From: an uncultured Bacteroidales bacterium
GTDB lineage: Bacteria; Bacteroidota; Bacteroidia; Bacteroidales; P3
NCBI GenBank assembly: GCA_905235855.1
Contig: CAJONE010000022.1
Span: 1 to 39,016, forward strand
DNA length: 39,016 bases
Reading direction: 5' to 3'
This document shows positions 21,464-35,650 of the stretch, piece by piece. Made by a program: the position numbers and the translations under genes. Each line of letters starts with the position of its first letter. Position 1 is the stretch's first letter. The notes under the pieces were generated by a model, which was not told the origin of the DNA, searched no databases, and was given only the letters and a program-made list of their open reading frames with translations.

Positions 21464-24400
21464 TTACCTTAACAGCATTACCGTTCCGACCAGAGTCTGT
21501 GGACCGTTCTGCATTGACTTCTTCACATAGTTGATGCGGTAGACGTAGGCCGCCTGCGGACATGGAACACCATGGTGAGTTCCGTCCCATTTTTCGTTGA
21601 TGTCTGTCGAGTGGAAGACAATTAGACCTTCGCGATTGTAAACCCACATCTCAAGCTCGACTATGCCAGTGCCGACAGGTCCAAAGAGATTGTTTATGTC
21701 GAGACCGGGTGTGAATGCGTTAGGCAGGTAGAGTGACTCGAAGTAGTACGGAATAGCTATGCGACTGGTGTCGGCGCACTGTTCGCTGTGTGCTATCAGC
21801 TCAATTATCACCGAGTCGTTGCCGCTTGCCATATCGTAGTCACCATAGATATGTTCGGTTTGCTGGGTGTAGTATTGTCCGTCGACATACCAGTCGCGCT
21901 GTGCCGTATGGCGGTCGCCGTTTACGTTATAGTCGGCGTGCCAGCGTAGGTTGTCAGGTGTGACGTATGGCGGGTTGACTGTTATGTCGGCAGTGGGTTT
22001 GACAAAGCGGCTTAAGGTTATGTTTGCCGTTTGTGGGCAGCGCCTGTTGTCGCCGTATGCCACGCTTACATAGTAAGTTGTTTCCTCACCCGGATTTACG
22101 TGTATCACACTGTCTGTACCCTGTGGCGTCGAATGGCCAAATTGTGTTTTGCTGCTCCATTGGTATCTGAAAGCGTCGCCGTGGGTCGGAGGTGTGGCTA
22201 TTGCGCTAAGGTCGTACCATCCTTGGATGCAGTCGATATCTTTTTCGATCTCAACCGTAAGGGTGGGCAACAATACGAGGTGCAGGGCATATAGGCTGTC
22301 GCAGCCATATACCGTCTGGTAGGTGTGAGTGAAGTTTCCTCCCGTGGTGTGCCCCTCGCCGTGCCAGGTGTATATTTCGCCTTCGCATAGAGAGTCGGTC
22401 TCTTCTATACGGTAGGACGGGTGGATTGTGAGGTGCAGGGTAACTACACTGTCGCATTGCCATTGGTTTTGAAGCGTCCGTGTCATGTTCGTATCCTGCG
22501 TGAAAGTCGTACCGTTCCAGATGTAGCTGTCGCAAGCTTGCCGATAGTCGTCAGTTGCATTGCTGTAGTGTATAGTTAGATGCAGTGTGACCGTCGAGTC
22601 GCATCCAGCCGCATTGCCGTTAGGCAGCAGGTGGGTCGGCTCTTCGGTTGAGACCGTATAGGTTTGGCCGTTACCAGTGGTCCAGATGTAGCTGTCGCAG
22701 GCCGTCACGGTTTCGGTACCGAAGCTCTTGTGGTTTATTGTAAGATCGAGATAGGCCACGCTGTCGCATCCCGCTGCTGTTACGGTGTTCCAGTGGTAAA
22801 CGCCGGTCATCCCATAGGTGCCCCCGTCGGTTGCCCAGGTGTATGTGTCGCATGCTGTTACGCTTTCCATACTGCGCAGTGTGTCGTTCACTGTGACAGT
22901 ACCCGTCTTTGTTACGGTCGGGCATCCGTAGAGATTTGTGGCCGTGATGGTGAAGTTGCCGCTGTAGTGCGGGATCCCCGAAAGGCGGCCGTAGCCGGTG
23001 CCCATAAAGTCATATTGTACATCGTCGGGTATACCTTCCACTGCTATGTTGGCATGGGTGTAACGGATGTTGATAGGAGTTATGCTTGCTCCTGCACATA
23101 CGGTCTGCTCCAAGTCGTTGGCCGAAATCTCCGCCAGAGGGAATACAATTACTGTTACTGCATCCGTGTCGCGGCATCCGTTTTCATCGGTTGCTGTGAC
23201 GGTATAGGTCGTCGTGTCGGCGGGGGTGGCCACTACCGTTGGCGCATCGCTGCGGTCGAGTCCGGTTCCAGGCAACCAGTTGTATTGCACTGTGCCGCCT
23301 ATGTTGTCGCTTCTTCCGTTGGCTATTAGAGTTGTGCTTTCGCCGAGGCAGATTGATACATCGTTCGAGGCCGTGACGTTTATGTTGCTGGCGGGGATAT
23401 GCACTTGTATTATGCTGGTTGTCTGGTTGCCGCATTCGTCGGCTACCGTAACGGTCACATTGACGTTTTGAGCATCGTGAGTATTTTGCGCAAAACGTGC
23501 GGTAGTGTCTGGAGACTGAGAGACAAAGGAGACGGTGTGTCCACAGTTGTCGCTTGTCGCTGCCAGAGTGATATCTTTCAGGTTAGGCATCCTAAATTGG
23601 CAATTCCCTGCTGCAATTGCTTCCTGTGGGGCGATTGAGCCTATCTCCGGTCGGATGGTATCGCGTACCGTATAGGTAAAGTCCCATTGGGATTCAAGCC
23701 CCGAACAGTCGCGATAGGTGAAACTGTATGTTCGTGAGCCGTTGCAATTGTTGTAGTTTTCGGTCACAACCGTGTCGACCGGAACTAATAGGTTGTCGCA
23801 CACGTCATACATCTCCGGCAGTACACTCGGCAACACCGCATCATCCATGCAGGCTACGGTTGCAGCATTGATTACGGGCGTGCCTCGTTCGCTGGGTGGG
23901 GTAGACCTGTCTATTGTATAGGTGTATCTCCAGAAATCTTCTGCCCCTGCACAGTCCTGATAGCGATAGACGAATGTTACTGTGCCTTCGCATCCCGGCG
24001 TCCCCCAAATGGTGTCAATTTGGTGCAGGGTGGGAACCACCATAGTGTTGCAGCTGTTTCTCACTTCTGGCGATTCAGGTATGGTCACTTCTGACAGGCA
24101 CTCAACGGTCGTACCTTCATCGTTCGGTAGCGAGAACGGTTCGGGAGTTACGTGGTATGTGTAGCTCCAACTGTGTGTTACGGCGTTGATGGTGTAGGTG
24201 TAGGTGAATGTCGAGTCGCCGCAGCCTTGTTCGTTTACGTTATTTTCGGTTAATGTCAAAACAGGTCTGTATTCAACGCCGCATACCATGAATACAGGTA
24301 TGCTTGGTGTGCCATCGAAGCTCGGCTCGATAATGTCGGTGACGCAGTGTACTACGGATGTTTCATCGGGTTGTTCGATGAACACATCCGGGTTGACTGT

Positions 24401-24577
24401 GTAGACATAGCTCCACACGCTGTCGTGGCCCGCACAGTCGGTGTAGGTGTAGCGGTGTGTCACCGTGCCAGTGCCGTGTTCATGGCGGCAGTGCTGTCGA
24501 GATAGACGGGTACTATGTTGCGGCCGCAGGCATCCTGAATGGTGTTGGCACCTGGTATCACGGCGTCGATAGCACAA
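21464..24577 (-). CDS. Giant protein, C-terminal segment (frame 3)
   Basis: This 1,037-codon open frame is genuine from GTGTVTHRYTYTDCAGHDS on; its first 35 or so residues are out of register. It continues with three to four Cys repeats (DCAGAEDFWRYTYTI, DCSGLESQWDFTYTV) and an HYR-like module (DNCGHTVSF, DECGNQTTS). A PKD-like segment follows (CLGESTTLIANG, GCRDTDAVTV). Next are four repeats pairing CDSYxW with GCDSxxxLHLTI at about 60-residue spacing. A last sandwich domain leads into the sorting signal: YLPNAFTPGLDINNLFGPVG, VYNREGLIVF, WDGTHHG, VYRINYVKK, GTVMLLR. The last module matches the type-B gliding-motility-associated C-terminal domain used for T9SS export. No start codon or signal for independent translation is evident. 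Confidence 0.75.
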   Translation of the reverse strand: MCYRRRDTRCQHHSGCLRPQHSTRLSRQHCRHEHGTGTVTHRYTYTDCAGHDSVWSYVYTVNPDVFIEQPDETSVVHCVTDIIEPSFDGTPSIPVFMVCGVEYRPVLTLTENNVNEQGCGDSTFTYTYTINAVTHSWSYTYHVTPEPFSLPNDEGTTVECLSEVTIPESPEVRNSCNTMVVPTLHQIDTIWGTPGCEGTVTFVYRYQDCAGAEDFWRYTYTIDRSTPPSERGTPVINAATVACMDDAVLPSVLPEMYDVCDNLLVPVDTVVTENYNNCNGSRTYSFTYRDCSGLESQWDFTYTVRDTIRPEIGSIAPQEAIAAGNCQFRMPNLKDITLAATSDNCGHTVSFVSQSPDTTARFAQNTHDAQNVNVTVTVADECGNQTTSIIQVHIPASNINVTASNDVSICLGESTTLIANGRSDNIGGTVQYNWLPGTGLDRSDAPTVVATPADTTTYTVTATDENGCRDTDAVTVIVFPLAEISANDLEQTVCAGASITPINIRYTHANIAVEGIPDDVQYDFMGTGYGRLSGIPHYSGNFTITATNLYGCPTVTKTGTVTVNDTLRSMESVTACDTYTWATDGGTYGMTGVYHWNTVTAAGCDSVAYLDLTINHKSFGTETVTACDSYIWTTGNGQTYTVSTEEPTHLLPNGNAAGCDSTVTLHLTIHYSNATDDYRQACDSYIWNGTTFTQDTNMTRTLQNQWQCDSVVTLHLTIHPSYRIEETDSLCEGEIYTWHGEGHTTGGNFTHTYQTVYGCDSLYALHLVLLPTLTVEIEKDIDCIQGWYDLSAIATPPTHGDAFRYQWSSKTQFGHSTPQGTDSVIHVNPGEETTYYVSVAYGDNRRCPQTANITLSRFVKPTADITVNPPYVTPDNLRWHADYNVNGDRHTAQRDWYVDGQYYTQQTEHIYGDYDMASGNDSVIIELIAHSEQCADTSRIAIPYYFESLYLPNAFTPGLDINNLFGPVGTGIVELEMWVYNREGLIVFHSTDINEKWDGTHHGVPCPQAAYVYRINYVKKSMQNGPQTLVGTVMLLR

Positions 24578-27500
24578 GCCATATCGCCGGTGCCGTTGTC
24601 GGGCACAGCTGCAATCACCTCAGGCAGTTCGATGCGGTAGGTGAAGGTCCATGTGTCGCTGTTGTTGCCCGAGCAGTCGGTATAGGTGTAGGTGTAGGTC
24701 TTGGTGGCGTTGCATGAGCCGGCATCCTCGGTGTAGGTGGAGTCGGTGAGCACACCGTTGATAGCCTCGCCGCAGCTGCTGGTGGCGGTCGGCACGGTGA
24801 ACGTGGCCATGGCCAAGCTTGGGCAAATGACGGTGTCCTTGTCGGTGATGCCTGTGCTGTTGATGGCAACTGAACCTTGGCGCTCTATGGTGTAAGTGTG
24901 TACATACGTATGCACATGGTTGGCGCAGTCGCGGTAGGTATAGGTGTAGGCCATCTCGCCCTCGCACGCTGGGGCTGCACTAATCGTGGTGTCTATCGGA
25001 ATGAGTGTCTCGCCGCAAGCAGACGTTACTGTCGGCAATGTCCAAGCACAGCCCGATTCTCCGGCACCCAGAGCGTCGGCGGCGCACTCCACAGTGGCGC
25101 TGCCGGTGGCAGGTGTGACGGCAAAGTCAGGCTGTTCAATATGGTAGGTGTACGTCCAGTCGTGGTTGTGACCGGCGCAGTCGGTGTAGGTGTAAACGAA
25201 CTCGATATCACCGTTGCAAGCAGGAGCGACGGTCGGGTAACCAGCTTTGAGCACTGGAGCGTTGAGGACGGTGTCGCAGTGGTTGAGCACTACAGGCAGA
25301 GATATGAGGCTACCAGTCTCACCAGCGGCCAGAGCGTTGACGGTGCAGTTGACCGTACCCTCGGCGTTGGCGGGCATGAGGTCATCGAAATCTGTCGGGG
25401 TCACGTTGAACACCGCTCTCCATACATAGTCTTCTGCATTTACATTGTATGTCCAGCGGTGAACGATAATACCGCATCCTCCAGCCGCTACTGCAATACT
25501 GTCGCTATATACCGGGATAACATCCACTCCACACACGCTTACCTCCGGCTTTGTATACAGGCTCTCCACGGCAAGTGCCGGACAGCTGATTGCTATTGTG
25601 TCGTTTGCAGGCAAGCTGAACACATCCGGTTCTATCCGATAGGTCAAGTGCCAATCGTAGTCACCAGTGCAGGTGGTGTAACGGTAATTGTATGTCACGA
25701 AGCCTTTTCCGTTCGCACCTACGGTACTCTCCCTATAGTCGGTTGCGTTCGGATAAGGAATAGCTGTGTAGTCGGTTCCGCAAATGGTTATCACGTTTGG
25801 TGTCGGTGCGGTTGCATCCACTTCGCACAGTCTGTCTAAAGTGTCAATTGCTGGCACCGAGAGTATCGGATAGTTTATCGTGATAGTCTGCGTGGCTTCG
25901 CTGTGGTTGCCGCAGGCATCAGTCACGCGGTAGGTTCTTGTTGTAGATTTGTTACACTCGCCTGCCAGTGCCGGTGTGTCGCTTGTAACTACGAGGTCGG
26001 CGTTGTTCGTGCAGTTGTCGCTAATTGTAAGACCGTTGTCGCTCAGATATTCTATGGTGTTTGTTGCGGTTGGCATGTCGCTTTCTCCGCATCCGGTCAG
26101 CACTATCGGCTCAAGTGTGCCAGTGATGAGGGGTTTGGTAGTGTCTTTTATCGTTATGGTCTGCACCGAGTCGGCCAGCCACGAAATGTTGCCACAGACG
26201 TCTGTCACTCTCCAGTTACGTTTGATTGTGGTAACGCAACCTTCTGTCGTGATTACATCGGTGAATGAAACTGTCGGATTGGCGTTGCAGTTGTCGCTTA
26301 CGGCGGTGGGCTGCATTTTGGCTATTCCTGTGGTATCAGATGTTGCGTTGCAAGAGCCGTTCTGCGCTATCAGCGTGTCGGCGGGTCTGGTGTAGGTCGG
26401 AGCTGTGGTGTCTTTTATCGTTATGGTCTGCACCGAGTCGGCCAGCCACGAAATGTTGCCACAGGCGTCAGTCACTCTCCAGTTACGCTTGATGGTGGTA
26501 ACGCAACCTTCTGTCGTGGTTACATCGGTGTAGGAAACTATCGGATTGGCATCGCAGTTGTCGCTTATGGCAGTGGGCTGCATTTTGGCTATTCCTATGG
26601 TATCAGATGTTGCGTTGCAGGAGCCGTTTTGCGCTATGAGCGTGTCGGCAGGTCTGGTGTACGCAGGTGCGATAGTGTCCAAAACGGTGATCGTCTGAAT
26701 CTGATTGTCGGCATGGTTGCCGCAGTTGTCAACGAGACTCCATGTGCGGCTTATCACCTTCTTTCCGGCGCAATCGCCGTCGGTCGCTGCATCCGTGTAG
26801 GTGGCTTCCAATCCTGTCGAGCAGTTGTCTGTCTCATCGGTGACATCGCCTGTTTGTGCTATCGATGCGTCGTATATGCAGTTGGCGTCAGCGTAGATGG
26901 TGATGTCGTCAGGTGCTGTGAATGTTGGGGCAACGTTGTCGAGGATGTTATAGGTATACACCCACACAAACTCTTTGTCTGCACAGTCTTTATATGTATA
27001 GGTGTATGTTACTTTTCCCTCGCAGCCAGTTCTTCCAGTTTCCCAAAATGTGTTTGTAACAGGTTCAGGCTTTGGTATCAGCGTACCGCATACATCGTTC
27101 ACGGTTGGAGTTGCCGGTTCCGATTCTGTTTCGGTCAAACATGCTACAGTGGATGCCGTAGATATTGCCGGATAGTCTACCGCCTCGGGAGCCGAGGTGT
27201 GTTCTATTGTGTAGGTATATGTCCAGTCATGCTCGTGTCCTGCGCAGTCGGCGTAAGTATACACGTATTCAACCGATCCCTCGCACGGGGGCGTTGCTGT
27301 CGGGTAACCAGTCTTTAGGGTTATTGTAACAGCACTGTCGCAATAGTCTGTCACCGTCGGCTGGATGGGTTCGGTCACAGATGACGGGCATGCTACAGTC
27401 GTGCCGTCGTCGGATGGTATGGTAAAGTCGTCTGGCAACACATTGAACGTGTACTTCCACTCGTAGGTTATTCCATTCACCACATAGTGGTAGTAGTATG

Positions 27501-28074
27501 TGCTGTCGCCACAGCTGTTGTTGAAATTGCCGTTCACACTGTCGAACACCACCTCTACTGGAGATCCGCACACCGTAATCGTCGGCTTATTGGCTTCCAT
27601 AGCAATTTGAGAAAGTACCATATTCGGGCATTTCACAGTGCTGTCTTTGTCTGCAACAGGTGTGAATACATCTGGGTTTACAGTATAGACATAACGCCAG
27701 ATGCTATCGTGTCCAGCGCAGTCGGTGTAGGTGTATTTGTGTGTTACTGTCCCCGTCCCATCGGTATTCATCGCAGCCACACTGTCGAGGTATGTCGGCA
27801 CTATATCCCTACCGCACACGTCCGTTATCGTGGCTGCACCTGGTTTAGCAGCATCTATGGCACACGGTACCTCTCTGCCGTCGTCAGCGGGTACTGCTGC
27901 TATGGTCGTGGGCATCTCGATGGTGTAGGTGAAGGTCCATACGAACTCAAGGTCGGCGCAGTCCTTATAGGTATAGGTGTAGGTTCGAAAGCCCTCGCAT
28001 GTCAGGCTGGCCGGGTTGTCGGTCATGACCGGAGCCGGAGCGTCGAGAGTGTTGCCGCACACATCCTTGACCAC
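24460..28074 (-). CDS. Giant protein, middle segment (frame 2)
   Basis: This 1,204-codon open frame carries about nine copies of a repeat of roughly 80 residues. Each has TVxC at the start, VxDxCG in the middle, CEGxxxYTYTYxDCAGHxxxWTYTYxIE towards the end. Between repeats 6 and 7 lie four HYR-like modules; two of them (encoded at 26141-26407 and 26408-26674) are near-identical tandem copies of 89 residues with DNCNANP, CVTTIKRNWRVTD and CGNISWLADSVQTITIKD. The frame can be followed upstream of its first ATG to 28112 (CLAAASAPTTLPVVKDVCG), showing that it continues frame 1. It ends in an aberrant ALAR-stop after the second indel. Confidence 0.75.
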   Translation of the reverse strand: MVKDVCGNTLDAPAPVMTDNPASLTCEGFRTYTYTYKDCADLEFVWTFTYTIEMPTTIAAVPADDGREVPCAIDAAKPGAATITDVCGRDIVPTYLDSVAAMNTDGTGTVTHKYTYTDCAGHDSIWRYVYTVNPDVFTPVADKDSTVKCPNMVLSQIAMEANKPTITVCGSPVEVVFDSVNGNFNNSCGDSTYYYHYVVNGITYEWKYTFNVLPDDFTIPSDDGTTVACPSSVTEPIQPTVTDYCDSAVTITLKTGYPTATPPCEGSVEYVYTYADCAGHEHDWTYTYTIEHTSAPEAVDYPAISTASTVACLTETESEPATPTVNDVCGTLIPKPEPVTNTFWETGRTGCEGKVTYTYTYKDCADKEFVWVYTYNILDNVAPTFTAPDDITIYADANCIYDASIAQTGDVTDETDNCSTGLEATYTDAATDGDCAGKKVISRTWSLVDNCGNHADNQIQTITVLDTIAPAYTRPADTLIAQNGSCNATSDTIGIAKMQPTAISDNCDANPIVSYTDVTTTEGCVTTIKRNWRVTDACGNISWLADSVQTITIKDTTAPTYTRPADTLIAQNGSCNATSDTTGIAKMQPTAVSDNCNANPTVSFTDVITTEGCVTTIKRNWRVTDVCGNISWLADSVQTITIKDTTKPLITGTLEPIVLTGCGESDMPTATNTIEYLSDNGLTISDNCTNNADLVVTSDTPALAGECNKSTTRTYRVTDACGNHSEATQTITINYPILSVPAIDTLDRLCEVDATAPTPNVITICGTDYTAIPYPNATDYRESTVGANGKGFVTYNYRYTTCTGDYDWHLTYRIEPDVFSLPANDTIAISCPALAVESLYTKPEVSVCGVDVIPVYSDSIAVAAGGCGIIVHRWTYNVNAEDYVWRAVFNVTPTDFDDLMPANAEGTVNCTVNALAAGETGSLISLPVVLNHCDTVLNAPVLKAGYPTVAPACNGDIEFVYTYTDCAGHNHDWTYTYHIEQPDFAVTPATGSATVECAADALGAGESGCAWTLPTVTSACGETLIPIDTTISAAPACEGEMAYTYTYRDCANHVHTYVHTYTIERQGSVAINSTGITDKDTVICPSLAMATFTVPTATSSCGEAINGVLTDSTYTEDAGSCNATKTYTYTYTDCSGNNSDTWTFTYRIELPEVIAAVPDNGTGDMACAIDAVIPGANTIQDACGRNIVPVYLDSTAAMNTALAR
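26141..26674 (-). repeat. Tandem 267-bp duplication (HYR-like modules)
   Basis: Two adjacent units of 267 bases start at 26141 and 26408 with the same sequence and differ by only scattered substitutions. The unit is exactly 89 codons, so copy number can change without altering the frame. Confidence 0.9.
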
Positions 28075-31000
28075 AGGTAATGTGGTGGGAGCAGAGGCCG
28101 CAGCCAGACACTCCTACGGTGCTGCTGGTGGCCACGGGTCCGCCGACTTCGGCAGGAGCGGTGGAGTGAGCGATGGTGTAGGTGAAGGTCCATGTGCGAG
28201 TATGTCCGGCGCAATCGGTGTAGGTGTAGGCATACGCTCTTGTTCCCTCGCAGTCGTCGATTGTCCAGGTGCTGACCGGCGATGCCACATTGCGCTGTGC
28301 CGACAGGTCTGAACCGCAGGCGTCGGTTACATTGGGCATCACATTGGGGATTAAAGTGTGAGGCAATGCTATTTCGCTCACGCATTCCACCGTCTTGGAG
28401 TTGGTTCCGCCAGTAATGCTTATGTTGTCAGGGAAGGTGATTCCGATGGTCTGCGTCACTTCGCTGCTCTGGTTGTTGCATGTATCCTTTACCCTATAGG
28501 TTCTGGTAAAGGTTTTGTCGCATGTGCCGCTTACTGGTCCGTCGGACACAGTGAGAGTCATGTTGCCGAGGCTGGCGCAGTTGTCGGTCACATTTGCCCC
28601 AGCTCCCTGAAGAGCGACTTTGAAAGCCTCCACGGACTCATACTTCATAGGAGCATCTCCAAAACTGCACCCTTCGACCGTAAGGTCTGGGAGAGAGCCT
28701 ATGACCACGGGAGCCTCATCGTCGACTATTTTGATGCTCTGCGAGATGGTGCTACCGTTGCCGCAGGCATCCTTGACGGTGTAGGTTCTGGTAAAGGTTT
28801 TCGTGCATCCGCCGCTGACGGTGCCGTCTGCGTAGGAGAGCGTCATGTTGGCAAGATCAGGCGTGCAGGCATCAGTTATGCCAGCACCGCTGCCGGTAAG
28901 GGCGGCTGCCAGAGCTGCAACCGAGGCGTATGGAGCAGGTTTGTCGGCGGCTGTGCAGCCTGTGATAGTGATTTCGGGAAGCGTGCCGATGATGACAGGT
29001 GTGGTGATATCCAGCACTTTGATGGCATCGCTTACAGTGTATGAATTGCTGCAACCAGCTGCATCCAACACGGTTAGGGTTATGGGATAGGTAGCGTTGC
29101 AGTTGTTTGGTATATCTACCACAATCGAAGGCGTAGCCGAGGTGGTGTTTGAAATTGTGGTGGCAGTTACGGCGGTAAGGTCGCCTATAGTCCAAGTGTA
29201 GGTATAGTTCGGTGTACCTGGTGTTGTAAGGCTTCCTGTGATTGTCTGGTTTGTGGCAGAGGGGCAGAGGGTGCCAGCAATCGGGCTGAAGGTCACCGCC
29301 GGCTTCGGGTTGATGGGGAAAATGAAGCTCTTGGGCTGTGCGCAGGTGGAAGTCGCCGGAGTGAAAGTCACAGTGGCAGGTCCGGCCAATGGCAGTGTGT
29401 AGGTGGTGCCGGAAACGCTACCTGCGGTGGCACTCCAGGTGTAGCTGGCGGCCGAGAGGTCGACTCCGTAGGTGGTGGTGGTAGGCAGGGTGACCGACTC
29501 GCCTCCGCAGATTGGTTCGAAGTTGAAATCCACTATCGGCTCCCAGATGGCGTAGAGGTAGTCGTCTTTCTGGTAGAGGTCGGCGGCCACTTTCGTAACT
29601 TCGTTGGTGAAGGTGGACTCCTTATAATATTTGTTGTTCTTGTAATATAAGAAATTGGGCGTGCATTGTTCGATGGTGGTCGGGACGGTGCTGCCTTCGG
29701 GGGTGCGCTGCTTGTACCAGCCCTTGAAAGTGTAGCCCGTGCGGGTGGGTGCTGCGGGTATGGTAGGCGTTGTGCCGTCGAACTCGGTGACGGTCATGTT
29801 GATGGGCAGGGTGTGCGGCGTGGTGGTCTCCTTGTCAGCGCGCACAATGGCACCCGTGCCGTCGTTCTTGTACCAAGTGATAAATGAGTGGGAGGGTTGT
29901 TCCACATCCACATATTCGGCACGTAGTATGAGGGTGTAGATGGCTTTCGAGATCAACCTATGCGTGGCATCGGGCGGGGCGACATTGTATGGATCGTCCG
30001 GTATTCGGATGTCCGAAGCGTTGTCGGGGTCGCACCATTCCAGAATATACTGCTTCGCATTCGACTTAAGAACTGTAAATGCATCGGCGGGATAGATGCG
30101 CGAGCCGGGGACATCCTCAAACACCCTGGTTGTGGTATTGTATCGTTGCATCACCCAATGCGAGAACTCCTTGTCGGCAGATGGCGGTGTACAGGCGTTG
30201 TGGGCTATTGCTTCAACATCGTCCTGATATTTGTGTTGTGCCGTGTCGCTCGCTGGTGTGCCACCGTTGCCGTCGTAAACCACGGTAATGCCTATGGCTC
30301 CAGGCAGGGTGGCCTTCCACTTGCCGTAGATGTCGTACTTGCGGGTAATCCAGAAGCGTTCCGGCACACGAGGGGTTGTCGCATCCCTCATGGCATCGGA
30401 GTTCCATGTGGCACCAACACCATACTCGTCCATCGGGTCGGTAAAGTCGGTGGTTTTGTTATATAGTGTGGTGTTTGCGTCGGTCAGCGTGATGGCTGTC
30501 TCGTTGAAGGGGTGTGTGCATGCTGCGTCGGTAAACCAGCCCACAAACTTATAGTTGTCGTCCAGGTCGATTCCTGTCGGAACACTGATTTTGTCATTAT
30601 AATCCCTACGGAAGTTCATCGCTTGGCTGGCTGAACCCCAATCCAATCGTGGGACGCTTGCGGCGTCGATACCGGGGTGAAGAAACACTCTATACTGAAT
30701 TTTCCTCCATTTCGCATACACCGTTACGCCGCCCTTGGGCATCGTGGTGAAATTATATGCTTGCTGGCACAACTTATCGACATACCAGCCCTCGAACACA
30801 AAACCGATAGGTGTGTCTTCGGCATTAGGACGATATGCATCGTACGAGCGTATGTCTGCACCGTATGCTATATCGGTTATCTCGTCTATCTGTCCCTGAT
30901 CAATCTCACCAGTGAGACGGTTTCCGTTACCGTCATAATAGGCTCCATCCATAAAATTGATAGGATATTTCTCACGCAGGTAGTAGAGATACAAGGTGCC

Positions 31001-32983
31001 TCCAGTGGAAACATCCGCACGTCCATTTACAAAAGCAGGTTCTGACCCGTATTTTGAATAGCCGGTTAGGGTTACAAAGTCCTCTGCCTCGGTAAACCAA
31101 TTGTACTTGGCTGTTATGGTGTTGCCGTATTGCGCAAAATTCACTCCGTTGTAGGTACGTGTTCCCGCCTGTCCTGGCAGCACTTCGACATAAAACCTCA
31201 TATATTTCGTGGAAGCTGTCGATGTGTTTCGATAGAATGTCACGTTTTCAGCTGGCATTGCATCGATGTACACCAACACTTCGTTGAATGTGCTTGAACT
31301 CTGTGGCTCCCATCGCCATTCGGCAGAGGCTCCATTGTCCGTTATCGGGAAATTGCTGCCGATAGACTGCTCGTACAGGGCGGTAATGGTTTTATAAACT
31401 GTTCCATTCCTGTCTTTACGGAATGTCAGTGTATAACTGTTTCTGTCGTAATAGACATTCAGCACCGAATTTCCTTCGGTGGCGATGCGAACATTTTGGT
31501 CAAATTGGTTGAGGTGAAACCCAGTGTATCGTTTGTTTGCGCCGTTGACGCGTGCGTATGCGCCGTTGCCAGTGCCTTGTTGTGTAACAGTGTTTATTAT
31601 ATCGCCCACCGTGCCCGTCAACGATATAGCCTCCGCATAGTCGTAGCCGTTAGCCTCTATGTTCTGTTTCCAGATGATGACGGTATATGGTGCGGTTGTG
31701 TTGGCTCTCCATTTGGCATAGATGTGCGTATTCTCATTCAGAAGGTTGCCGAATGAAAACATTGCGCCTGTTGGATTACCTCCTTCCTCCGAAGGTTCTC
31801 CAAGATACCATCCTTGGAAGGTGTAGCCGTTGCGCGTCATCTCAAGCGATGGTTCCACTGTAACCTCGTCCGACTTCACGAAGTCTGCCGCCTTGTAGGT
31901 AGCTCCCTTACCGTTTTCGTGGTATATCAGCCAGTGGCCCTTGGTGATATGAACCTTGAAGGTTACGCCTCCGGTTATTGTAATCGGGTCGTCGTTTTCG
32001 TAAACATGGTTGTCGTCGGTATGTCCGGAAATGTACGCTCCGTCGGCATGGGTGTTCACCTTCCAACCCTCGAAGTTGTGGTCGTTGTCGTTGGGAATGT
32101 AGGCGGCAGTGACCGTATAGCTGGTGGTCGGCATTGCTGCATCGGCACGATAGGGAAAATCATCGGTTTTCAAAACTGCACCCGCCTCGTCGAGATAGGT
32201 GACATAGTAGCTCTTGAAGAGCATGGTGTAGAAGTGCATCTCTTCGCCGTCGGTTACGCCTGTGTTCAGGCGGGTTTGGATGGCGGTGCGCACCATGGCG
32301 AAGGTCATGGCGGATGCTATGTCGGTTGCTGTATAGCTTGCGTTGGTTGTCCAGCCCTTGCATGCAACGCCGGCAGGGACGGCACCCATGCCAGGATTAT
32401 AGACGATGGTGTTGTAGTCGCCCTGTGCGATATCGGCTTTCTTCACGTAGAGCGATATCGCCGTGCCGTCGGCACGGTGGAATGTTACTTTCAGTCGTGC
32501 GTAGTCGCCCGTTTCGGTCACGATATAAACCGAAAACGACTGCGCGGGGAACACTATCTTGCCGTTTTCTGCAGCAACTGTGGCCACATACTCTATGCCA
32601 TCCTTGCCTTCGTGGTAGATGTCATACAGCCTGCCATCTTCCAACATGGGGTCGGTCATGGCTACTATCGCCGGCTCGTCCGGTTCTGGTTGCCACTCGT
32701 TTCCGTCTTTCGTCAGGTTGATGTCGTATGCGCCATAGAGCCTCTCGCCGTTCGGCGAGGTGCGCTCCACAGGCTTTGCATCCACTGTGGCGTCCTCTGC
32801 TCCATAGACCTCCAAAACCATTGTCTGGCTCGCCTCGGTTTTTATCGTAACGCTTGTCTGCCCATAGGCGGCAAAATTCATCGTCAGTCCGAACAGCAGA
32901 CAGGCTGCCATCGCTAATCCAGCCAAGGGGCTTCTCCTCACTTTGAGTCTCTTTCTCATGCTAAAATTGTGGAAATATTTCAT
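27965..32983 (-). CDS. Giant protein, N-terminal segment (frame 1)
   Basis: This 1,672-codon frame begins with a long basic signal peptide (MRKRLKVRRSPLAGLAMAAC, cut after AAYGQ); ATG 32983 or ATG 32959 may be used. A beta-rich region follows, then from about residue 280 to 1150 come InlB/Listeria-Bacteroides-type repeats (GYTFQGWYLGEPS with IYAKW, FVFEGWYVDKL with VYAKW, GYTFKGWYKQR with LYAIWEP). After a Cys-containing PKD-like stretch there are two HYR-like modules (KDACGNGSTISQSIKIVDDE, KDTCNNQSSEVTQTI) and the first 80-residue Cys repeat (DCEGTRAYAYTYTDCAG). The frame is true to residue about 1,622; the last 49 residues are read after the indel at 28113. On its own it would be secreted to the periplasm without a sorting signal. 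Confidence 0.8.
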   Translation of the reverse strand: MKYFHNFSMRKRLKVRRSPLAGLAMAACLLFGLTMNFAAYGQTSVTIKTEASQTMVLEVYGAEDATVDAKPVERTSPNGERLYGAYDINLTKDGNEWQPEPDEPAIVAMTDPMLEDGRLYDIYHEGKDGIEYVATVAAENGKIVFPAQSFSVYIVTETGDYARLKVTFHRADGTAISLYVKKADIAQGDYNTIVYNPGMGAVPAGVACKGWTTNASYTATDIASAMTFAMVRTAIQTRLNTGVTDGEEMHFYTMLFKSYYVTYLDEAGAVLKTDDFPYRADAAMPTTSYTVTAAYIPNDNDHNFEGWKVNTHADGAYISGHTDDNHVYENDDPITITGGVTFKVHITKGHWLIYHENGKGATYKAADFVKSDEVTVEPSLEMTRNGYTFQGWYLGEPSEEGGNPTGAMFSFGNLLNENTHIYAKWRANTTAPYTVIIWKQNIEANGYDYAEAISLTGTVGDIINTVTQQGTGNGAYARVNGANKRYTGFHLNQFDQNVRIATEGNSVLNVYYDRNSYTLTFRKDRNGTVYKTITALYEQSIGSNFPITDNGASAEWRWEPQSSSTFNEVLVYIDAMPAENVTFYRNTSTASTKYMRFYVEVLPGQAGTRTYNGVNFAQYGNTITAKYNWFTEAEDFVTLTGYSKYGSEPAFVNGRADVSTGGTLYLYYLREKYPINFMDGAYYDGNGNRLTGEIDQGQIDEITDIAYGADIRSYDAYRPNAEDTPIGFVFEGWYVDKLCQQAYNFTTMPKGGVTVYAKWRKIQYRVFLHPGIDAASVPRLDWGSASQAMNFRRDYNDKISVPTGIDLDDNYKFVGWFTDAACTHPFNETAITLTDANTTLYNKTTDFTDPMDEYGVGATWNSDAMRDATTPRVPERFWITRKYDIYGKWKATLPGAIGITVVYDGNGGTPASDTAQHKYQDDVEAIAHNACTPPSADKEFSHWVMQRYNTTTRVFEDVPGSRIYPADAFTVLKSNAKQYILEWCDPDNASDIRIPDDPYNVAPPDATHRLISKAIYTLILRAEYVDVEQPSHSFITWYKNDGTGAIVRADKETTTPHTLPINMTVTEFDGTTPTIPAAPTRTGYTFKGWYKQRTPEGSTVPTTIEQCTPNFLYYKNNKYYKESTFTNEVTKVAADLYQKDDYLYAIWEPIVDFNFEPICGGESVTLPTTTTYGVDLSAASYTWSATAGSVSGTTYTLPLAGPATVTFTPATSTCAQPKSFIFPINPKPAVTFSPIAGTLCPSATNQTITGSLTTPGTPNYTYTWTIGDLTAVTATTISNTTSATPSIVVDIPNNCNATYPITLTVLDAAGCSNSYTVSDAIKVLDITTPVIIGTLPEITITGCTAADKPAPYASVAALAAALTGSGAGITDACTPDLANMTLSYADGTVSGGCTKTFTRTYTVKDACGNGSTISQSIKIVDDEAPVVIGSLPDLTVEGCSFGDAPMKYESVEAFKVALQGAGANVTDNCASLGNMTLTVSDGPVSGTCDKTFTRTYRVKDTCNNQSSEVTQTIGITFPDNISITGGTNSKTVECVSEIALPHTLIPNVMPNVTDACGSDLSAQRNVASPVSTWTIDDCEGTRAYAYTYTDCAGHTRTWTFTYTIAHSTAPAEVGGPVATSSTVGVSGCGLCSHHITCGQGCVRQHSRRSGSGHDRQPGQPDMRGLSNLHLYL

Positions 32984-33321
32984 TTGTGCGTGTGTTTCTG
33001 GTGTTTCGTGTGGTTTGGTCGTTAGGTGTTAAGTTGGTGTTTATCAGGTGATTGGTTTAATCAAAGAAAATGCAAAATTAGTAAAAAAAAGACCAGTAAT
33101 TGACAATTGAGTGTGTATAAAATTATCAACAAATGTTAAAATCCATCAATCTATCACAGATAGTGGAGGGAGTATCGTGTTGTAATACAATGTATTATAA
33201 ATGGTATTGTTGTGCGTTTTAAAGGTGGTGGCTACCATCATTTGATGCCCCACACCGAAAAGGTGTTACAACGAGGGAAAACGAACCTCTGCAAACCCCG
33301 CAATAATGACGGATTAGCCGC
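32984..33321. other. Intergenic region upstream of the giant gene
   Basis: On the - strand a -7 element TAATTTTG (33073-33080) would give a leader of about 80-90 bases for the giant gene, with a possible TTG at 33104-33106 further up. The rest is AT-rich with short imperfect palindromes (for example ACACC/GGTGT near 33251-33265). No gene is seen. Confidence 0.6.
33073..33080 (-). promoter_or_regulatory. -7 promoter element of the giant T9SS gene
   Basis: On the - strand TAATTTTG followed by CA fits TAnnTTTG and lies 90 bases upstream of ATG 32983. Confidence 0.6.
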
Positions 33322-33358
33322 AAAAATAAGCCCCATCCATGTAGCGTACTGGTGGGGC
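33322..33358 (-). terminator. Terminator of the GH3 gene
   Basis: On the - strand GCCCCACC pairs with GGATGGGGC (one bulged A), followed by TTATTTTT. It lies about 34 bases after the GH3 stop. Confidence 0.75.
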
Positions 33359-33391
33359 CTTTTGTATGGCATGACTATGGTTAGCGTGATG

Positions 33392-35650
33392 CTATTGCAG
33401 CGTTATTTCAAGGTCAATGAGGTCTTTGTCGTCGCTGCTGAAGCCCACCTGCAAGGTGATTTTTGTGCCAGCGGCGGGGTATCGCATCTGGCCTGTCGCG
33501 TCGTCGTAGTAGCGGAAAGCCTCGTAGTTTACCGGAATGCTGAACATCACGTCGTGACGGTAGAAAAGGCCAGAGAACGGAACGTCGGATGCCTCGCTGT
33601 GGCGTTCTTCTGTTCGAACGAAACCCACCAGGGTTTTCTCGCATCCGTCGGGCATGTTGCTCCCTTTGGCATACACCTGAACCACTTCCTCGCGCGGGTG
33701 GCCTTCAACACGCAGTATTCCAGTAACACTCCGGCTGCGAGCGTCGTACCTCAGGTTGCGCAACGAGTGCGAGCCGTTGTATGTGAGTCCGAATCCGAAA
33801 GGGTAGGAGGGTGTTTGCTTGAGATAGCGGTAAGTGCGGTTTGCCATCGAGTAGTTCTCAAAAGCCGGCAGCTGACCGGTGGAAGCGTAGAAGGTCACCG
33901 GCAGCCGTCCGAGGAGCGCGCCGTTTGAACAGTCGGCTATGGTCTCGAACAACGCTTGCCCCATTGCCTCGCCACCGTAGAAGGCTACAAGTATTGCGTC
34001 CACATGTTCCGCCACGTCGCCAAGTGCTATGGCGCTGCCGGTGCAGAGTACCAGTATGACGGGCTTGCCGGTGCGCTGTTTTAATGCTTTGATGGTTTTG
34101 GCTTGAATGTCGGGCAGTTCAATGCGAGTGCGGTCGCCACCCGAAAATCCGTCGCAATCCACATCCAGCTCTTCTCCCTCGAGCGCGGGGCTGAGCCCGC
34201 CGAAATAAACTATGGCATCGTAGTTTTTCAGGTGGTCGATGCAGCCTTCAAGGTATATGCTGTCGTCGTATTGCGGTTTTTCGACAAGGTTGTTGAGCCG
34301 TTCGGTGAAAAGCTCCAGGTTGCCGTTCGCTGTCGTTATGGCGTATTCGGTGAATGCTTCCAGTGGCGTTATGGGATTTACAGGCTGGCCGTTGTAGTTG
34401 CCGAGCATCATGGCGGTGTCGTTGGCGTTGGGACCCACTATGGCGAGTCTGTGTATGTCGTGGCGGACTTCCTGCTTAAAGTGCCGCTGCTCGATGCCTG
34501 GCAGACACAATGGCAGAACGCCGTTGTTTTTAAGCATCACGATGCTTTCTCTTGCCATATCGAGTGCGCGCGAGCGAGTGCGTGGCAATTTGGCAAGGTC
34601 CACAGGGTCGTCAACTCCGGTGAGCAACCGGGTTCGCAACACCCGTCGCAAGTGCTTGTCGACCTGCTCTTGGCCGACAAGTCCTGCTGCCACAGCCCCT
34701 TTCAGTGCCGCGAGGCCACTGCCGCACTCCAGATCGACTTCGCCGCCAAAGGCCGCCGCTGCCGCCGCCACCGCGTCTGCGTGGGTTTCGTGGCGCGGTG
34801 TCTTTGCATCGCGTTCCCACAGGTCGTTCAGCGCCCAGCAGTCGGTCACGACAATTCCGTCGTAGCGCCAGCGTTTGCGCAGTATGTCGCTCAGAAGAGG
34901 GCTGTTGGTGCAGCACGGTTCGCCGTTTATGCGGTTATAGCCACACATCACCTGTTGCACATCGCTGTTTTTTACAATGTATTCAAATGCAGGCAGATAG
35001 GTATACCAGAGGTCGAAAACCGAAACTTTCGAATTGAACCGGTGACGTGTCTTTTCCGGACCGCTGTGCACGGCCAGGTGTTTCAGGCATGCTGCCGCCA
35101 GCAGGCTGTTTTTGTCGAGTTTGGTCTGAAGCCCTTTCACTGCGGCAAGCCCCATTTGTGCCGTGAGCCACGGGTCTTCACCAAAGGTCTCCATGCCACG
35201 TCCCCAGCGGGGGTCGCGAAAAATGTTGATGTTGGGGGTGAAGTAGGTTATGCCTTTGTTGTCGCCATAGTTCGAGTGCTGCCGTTCGTTGGCATATTTG
35301 CGCCGTCCTTCGACGGCAATGGCGCGAAACGACTCCTCCACCAGGCCGCAGTCCCATGTGGCAGCCATGCCTATGGGCATCGGATAGACCGTGGCGGTTC
35401 CGTTACGGCCTATGCCGTGCAATGCCTCGTTCCACCAGCTGTAGGGTTTCAGCCCCAGTCTCTCTATGGCCGGATTCTGATGCTCCAAAAGCGACAGCTT
35501 TTCGTCGAGCGTAAGGTTCGAAACCAGGTTGTCAATGCGTTGGTTTGTTGGAAGCGACCTGTTCTGGAATGGGTATTTTTGGGCGGTGGCGTGTGTGGTG
35601 CACAGAATGGTGGCCATTGTGACCACAATAAAGGTTATGGTTTGTTTCAT
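33392..35650 (-). CDS. Glycoside hydrolase family 3 (beta-xylosidase/beta-glucosidase-like)
   Basis: The 752-residue enzyme has a signal peptide (MKQTITFIVVTMATILCTTH, cut after ATAQ). It then has the GH3 N-terminal barrel: YSWWNEALHGIGR, TYFTPNINIFRDPRWGRGME, LKHLAVHSG, and the nucleophile D270 in GIVVTDCWAL. The C-terminal sandwich domain (MLKNNGVLPL, VGPNANDT, then ALEGEELDVDCDGFSGGDR) supplies the acid/base residue. A fibronectin-III-like end follows (EVVQVYAKGS, ETLVGFVRTEE pattern). WWNEALHG is typical of GH3 xylosidases and related enzymes that split terminal beta-linked sugars from plant polysaccharides. It should act in the periplasm. The start at ATG 35650 is chosen for the signal peptide; the promoter lies directly before it. 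It diverges from the outer-membrane-protein gene. Confidence 0.92.
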   Translation of the reverse strand: MKQTITFIVVTMATILCTTHATAQKYPFQNRSLPTNQRIDNLVSNLTLDEKLSLLEHQNPAIERLGLKPYSWWNEALHGIGRNGTATVYPMPIGMAATWDCGLVEESFRAIAVEGRRKYANERQHSNYGDNKGITYFTPNINIFRDPRWGRGMETFGEDPWLTAQMGLAAVKGLQTKLDKNSLLAAACLKHLAVHSGPEKTRHRFNSKVSVFDLWYTYLPAFEYIVKNSDVQQVMCGYNRINGEPCCTNSPLLSDILRKRWRYDGIVVTDCWALNDLWERDAKTPRHETHADAVAAAAAAFGGEVDLECGSGLAALKGAVAAGLVGQEQVDKHLRRVLRTRLLTGVDDPVDLAKLPRTRSRALDMARESIVMLKNNGVLPLCLPGIEQRHFKQEVRHDIHRLAIVGPNANDTAMMLGNYNGQPVNPITPLEAFTEYAITTANGNLELFTERLNNLVEKPQYDDSIYLEGCIDHLKNYDAIVYFGGLSPALEGEELDVDCDGFSGGDRTRIELPDIQAKTIKALKQRTGKPVILVLCTGSAIALGDVAEHVDAILVAFYGGEAMGQALFETIADCSNGALLGRLPVTFYASTGQLPAFENYSMANRTYRYLKQTPSYPFGFGLTYNGSHSLRNLRYDARSRSVTGILRVEGHPREEVVQVYAKGSNMPDGCEKTLVGFVRTEERHSEASDVPFSGLFYRHDVMFSIPVNYEAFRYYDDATGQMRYPAAGTKITLQVGFSSDDKDLIDLEITLQ

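Follow-up and report, generated by a model that had tools for sequence, protein, structure and literature searches.

The window analysed here (39,016 nucleotides; contig 22 of an uncultured Bacteroidales genome, G000, assembled in 133 contigs, 2.25 Mb and 93% complete) carries on its minus strand, from 32983 to 21464, three long overlapping reading frames that continue one another in repeat register. An open reading frame scan places them at 27965-32983 (1,672 aa), 24460-28074 and 21464-24577; as scanned, the first piece covers 27968-32983, the second 24463-28113 (1,217 aa) and the third 21467-24484. Their joint span is 11,520 bases, or 3,840 codons. Judged by their sequence, the three frames are one gene for a single predicted T9SS-type repeat protein of ~3,840 residues, broken in the present copy.

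The first piece (28118..32983, minus strand, ~1,622 residues in register) starts with a basic and then a hydrophobic stretch, by eye resembling a signal peptide, followed by Flg_new (List_Bact) repeats (PF09479, 87.8 bits) and the first HYR_4C repeats (PF23237, 92.2 bits). Its open reading frame runs on out of register past the first break to 27965. The second piece (24478..28113, minus strand) consists of eight HYR_4C stretches (PF23237, 491.9 bits) and has no sorting tail. It includes a tandem pair of 267-bp (89-codon) HYR repeats that match at 93% (26141..26661, minus strand), an in-frame duplication of one unit that represents a recent repeat expansion; at 57 bp, the longest stretch that recurs exactly within the gene lies inside this pair. 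The third piece (21464..24475, minus strand) has further HYR_4C repeats, a K319L-like PKD domain (26.3 bits, just below the Pfam cut-off of 27), a CHU_C tail of the T9SS type B kind and a stop codon. The three pieces hold 3, 8 and 4 HYR_4C stretches above the Pfam cut-off, which makes the product a HYR_4C repeat protein. CHU_C is found at the C-terminus of the third piece (33.7 bits; Pfam cut-off 27) and nowhere else in the gene. The NCBIfam type B model TIGR04131 matches at the right place with 27.2 bits, below its cut-off of 35, so that the filing under type B follows from Pfam CHU_C and from the CHU_C ends of relatives.

Break 1 (28110..28118, minus strand) is a net one-base frame step (28113-28118) within the repeat motif TVEC, and break 2 (24470..24482, minus strand) is a net four-base shortfall (24474-24478) relative to relatives. 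The original prediction had read the locus as three frames in repeat register, split by two small indels, and the open reading frames, a codon-usage frame model and, for the second and third pieces, gapless junction alignments agree on this. The frame model, trained on the long open reading frames of the window and of further loci, and blind to the breaks, puts the frame changes at 28093-28099 and 24476-24477. That TVEC is interrupted by a net one base at break 1 is borne out by the model and by the last upstream stop of the second frame, which lies at 28116, directly at the break. The four bases said to be missing at ~24474 are also confirmed: between the same flanking codons, DNA comparison finds 2 bases in the window and 6 in two relatives (G014:C28 and G073:C8). 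Beyond these two breaks, no further stop or frame change occurs in the ~3,840 codons. As assembled, the copy thus carries frame-disrupting lesions relative to its orthologues, as a pseudogene would.

Collapse of an ACGG tandem had been offered as the origin of break 2. Four copies are comparable at this position (G014 C28, G014 C17, G073 C8 and the window's own sister repeat), and a directly doubled ACGG occurs in none of them; G014 C28 and G073 have two ACGG one base apart. A four-base tandem may lie at the origin of break 2, and its collapse is possible, yet the copies do not point to it and it is not needed as an explanation.

Continuity across the breaks was assessed with junction peptides (80 residues, XX, 80 residues) compared with 232 homologous proteins, the three records of the window itself being excluded. 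At break 2, 99 of the 232 homologues give a single alignment across the junction. The best (P0123, P0004 and P0125) are gapless over 162 columns at 73-78% identity; P0122 has one gap at 58%, and the corresponding G073 copy and G014 likewise show small gaps. G073 and P0122 look like one species, as their identity to the window is the same and neither departs from the invariant columns of the other. P0004 and P0123 also seem to be related; when each pair is counted together, about four independent lineages cross break 2 in one frame. The predicted continuity of the second and third pieces is beyond chance. Comparison of the locus in related genomes, which had been proposed as a check, thus finds these two pieces fused. 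At break 1, 97 of the 232 homologues span the junction in one frame, the best at 59-62% (P0139, P0121). Since this junction sits in a repeat motif, most of the spanning proteins are repeat-family relatives and not orthologues of the site, and break 1 is judged more against the repeat family than against orthologues. G014 crosses the equivalent of break 1 in one frame, but a different repeat follows there.

The relatives that share the C-terminal part are Bacteroidota HYR_4C giants with CHU_C, annotated as gliding motility-associated C-terminal domain-containing proteins (P0123, P0125, P0122, P0004). They have the same repeat family, PKD domain and CHU_C end, align colinearly with the final ~1,500 residues of the window protein at identities of about 50-64%, and stay in one frame over all of the length available; they differ in the N-terminal half, and Flg_new is absent among their precomputed domains. 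P0125 reads as one frame of 3,496 residues and appears to be complete; in it the family takes its normal form, an unbroken chain. The N-terminal ~1,220 residues are shared, at about 48-53%, with Flg_new proteins bearing a Por_Secre_tail from Bacteroidales/Bacteroidia metagenome-assembled genomes (RGIG8023 and RUG13567), which end soon after the shared part in a type A tail and have no HYR_4C match. The nearest relative over the whole length is found in G014, a genome of the same genus, on contigs C17 and C28 (57% identity to the first piece, 68-70% to the end of the second and 58% to the third), and it runs in one frame across break 2. Same-species copies are absent from the protein collection among the matches listed (best 120 of 426; ~8,000 candidates sharing the most words were scored per search); among these matches, 100% identity is reached only by P0002 and P0124, clusters whose single member is the window's own protein, and the next highest value is 65%.

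The G014 copy differs in lying on two contigs and in the sites of its breaks, which fall at short duplications and at a join near C28:438. Near C17:5254 (L017:5214-5290, minus strand) there is an exact doubling of a 38-bp unit (an exact match of 39 bp at offset 38), which looks like two overlapping ends joined without being merged. Near C17:4908 (L017:4847-4963, minus strand) a 70-bp unit is doubled (47 bp exact at offset 70); its copies differ at two bases, so it does not amount to one overlap simply being counted twice, and it may be an unmerged join with strain differences or true repeat variation. The frame change at C28:438 (L049:438, plus strand) is close to the contig start.

If the gene had been dead for some time, constraint downstream of the lesions should have relaxed. 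In the third piece, the window departs from 36 of 400 columns that are invariant in six other sequences, similar to G014 (32/396) and P0125 (30/394), two relatives of comparable divergence; sequences with a near relative in the set depart at 0-8. At C, W and G columns the window departs at 1 of 89, and the tail of the second piece at 3 of 126 invariant columns. The ratios of first-plus-second to third codon position changes are 0.43-0.52 before and after the breaks and 0.47-0.50 between two relatives. No relaxed constraint is seen in the third piece by invariant columns against six relatives, a measure insensitive to very recent loss. The breaks are therefore either very recent or not real, two cases that the decay test cannot separate.

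The reading that we favour, with a probability of about 0.58, is that both breaks are assembly or consensus errors and that the living cell has one open frame. Spurious breaks in the assembly or its consensus would come from low coverage, or from a mixture of strains, across a long repeat gene. This reading is preferred because interruptions also affect other genes of this assembly, among them the conserved secretion gene porU. In its favour stand, too, the relatives that are unbroken at break 2, the absence of decay in the third piece and the short duplications at which the G014 copy is broken. In porU (L067:10327-10466, contig C10), ~140 unrelated bases stand in place of 52 residues, with one half covering positions 1-428 and the other 482-1093 of the PorU model. 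The ~140-base stretch has no DNA match elsewhere in the genome or in four relatives, and porU is one open frame in all six relatives (aligned across the interruption only for G014); the interruption is likely a chimaeric join. Contig 56 holds another large repeat gene, which ends like the third piece and changes frame mid-repeat near C56:10244 (L051:10198-10250, minus strand), away from homopolymers. On contig 4, a gene resembling a restriction S subunit appears by eye to be frame-split (L061:4310-4360, plus strand), and its second part has no ATG. On C7, C33 and C47, related repeat genes are cut short by the contig end, and on C91 a match breaks off no more than 60 bases from it; the same truncation is seen in three of the giant genes of G073, G070 and G092.

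The extent of such interruptions was surveyed in 20 stretches of 20 kb (400 kb) of the source genome, which contain 46 frame changes between adjacent coding segments. Seven were read in three frames: two resemble interior breaks (porU and the contig-4 gene) and five look like ordinary gene boundaries. Eight of the 46 have no ATG of the second frame between 40 bases before and 60 bases after the stop of the first, porU and the contig-4 gene among them. This ATG rule is weak, flagging break 2 and the contig-56 change and missing break 1 and two of the three G014 changes, so that the number of breaks given here for ordinary genes is a minimum. Two frame changes in relatives outside giant genes (L047:13182 and L053:19289) were taken as gene boundaries. 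One study, on public genomes in general, documents spurious frameshifts from assembly at low coverage and attributes many apparent pseudogenes to these causes; in it, Illumina assemblies generally had the fewest pseudogenes (PMC11017572).

Several observations stand against assembly error. Both breaks lie outside exact repeats: the 57-bp longest one lies elsewhere, and a 23-bp repeat ends ~55 bases from break 1. Neither break is in a homopolymer, and indels in short-read consensus sequences are rare as a rule. In the same scan, the giant genes of G073, G092 and G070 were free of internal frame changes. Misassembly across internal repeats was considered as a direct cause in the window and rejected, as the gene has no exact repeat above 57 bp and none at the breaks.

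A real and recent loss is the next most likely reading, tentative beside assembly error as the most likely one. It holds that two true indels left a truncated N-terminal piece lacking the sorting tail and turned the remainder into a young pseudogene. The breaks are small and clean and fall neither in exact repeats nor in homopolymers, and no alternative allele of either site occurs elsewhere in the source genome, all of which would suit a true lesion; surface repeat genes are, moreover, commonly lost within species. Against it, the rest of the ~3,840 codons has no additional stop or frame change and the conserved columns of the third piece show no excess of changes, and the interruption of other genes, including porU, throws suspicion on the assembly. 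If the breaks were real, the product would be the first piece with an out-of-register tail of ~50 residues; that it would lack a sorting signal, as originally predicted, agrees with the confinement of CHU_C to the third piece.

The original prediction had also raised reversible slippage, by which small indels would turn a surface protein on and off within the population. Surface repeat proteins are usual targets of phase variation, and the copy in the sister genome G014 is frame-broken too, but that copy is broken at different positions and in a different manner. Within 15 bases of the two breaks in the window, no base run exceeds 2, units of two to six bases reach at most 2 tandem copies at the breaks, and no homopolymer of at least 6 occurs in the whole gene, whose only four-copy short tandem is at 29482, away from the breaks. 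In the upstream region (32800-33500) there are no inverted repeat pairs of at least 10 bases and thus no sign of an invertible element near the promoter; with no simple-sequence tract at the frame breaks either, the locus does not resemble a contingency locus. A literature search on T9SS phase variation via frameshift found no paper on the subject by title. Since a slippage tract is absent and two independent sites would need to be restored, a reversible switch is unlikely and the idea is not supported; the assembly-error alternative, which the original prediction had also named, fits better, given the other interrupted genes of the assembly and the different positions of the G014 breaks. A wider form of the switch would have short indels and duplications arise frequently in the repeat arrays of giant T9SS proteins across the genus, so that populations mix broken and unbroken versions, most cells would show a changing subset, and the present breaks and those of G014 would be snapshots. 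We regard it as similarly improbable.

It is more doubtful still that the pieces are three separate genes of an operon whose products jointly build a surface structure. Each frame does contain some ATG, GTG or TTG codon. The frames, however, overlap with no gene-like boundary, the second piece starts mid-repeat right after a stop, and the frame of the third piece has no ATG from its last upstream stop to 120 bases beyond the end of the second. This lack and the junction alignments, with the two pieces fused in relatives, led to the rejection of this reading. Programmed ribosomal frameshifting at both sites, which would yield one full protein and would account for the coding character and domain order kept in all three frames, is the least probable, as relatives cross break 2 without it, base runs of at most 2 at the breaks leave no slippery heptamer, and programmed frameshifting is not known to take a net four-base step of this kind.

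On the favoured reading of assembly error, the intact protein would be exported through the inner membrane by Sec, by virtue of its N-terminal signal, and its CHU_C tail would direct it to the type IX secretion system for passage across the outer membrane. Components of this system are present in the source genome, where GldL scores 202.4 bits (cut-off 68.3; 0 of 14 controls), PorV scores 446.9 (cut-off 250) and PorU is found as two halves. The HYR-like and Flg_new modules may be displayed as a long surface rod, and the domains suggest that the giant protein probably serves adhesion or contact. Going by this gene, the closest named relatives are Bacteroidales/Bacteroidia genomes assembled from metagenomes, one of them from water-buffalo rumen. 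The bearer is probably a Bacteroidales of the gut or rumen type, and its genome was probably put together from a metagenome as well.

The locus calls for caution, in that intact giant repeat genes in metagenome assemblies can pass for phase-variable or dead genes and will be misinterpreted in surveys that count pseudogenes or break one such gene up into several proteins. Breaks that were both real and variable would matter for the way in which gut Bacteroidales alter their surface. Within the genus, the first piece is matched in 2 of 37 genomes searched and the third in 118 of 120 (E up to 1e-20), the source genome being included in both counts; among the matches listed, those to the third piece are mostly to its C-terminal part. 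Large CHU_C-type proteins are thus general in the genus. A paralogue with the same end on contig 24 of G073 (G073:C24; L046:353-19114, plus strand) stays open over 6,253 codons in one frame, and giant genes of this genus can therefore be assembled in one frame.
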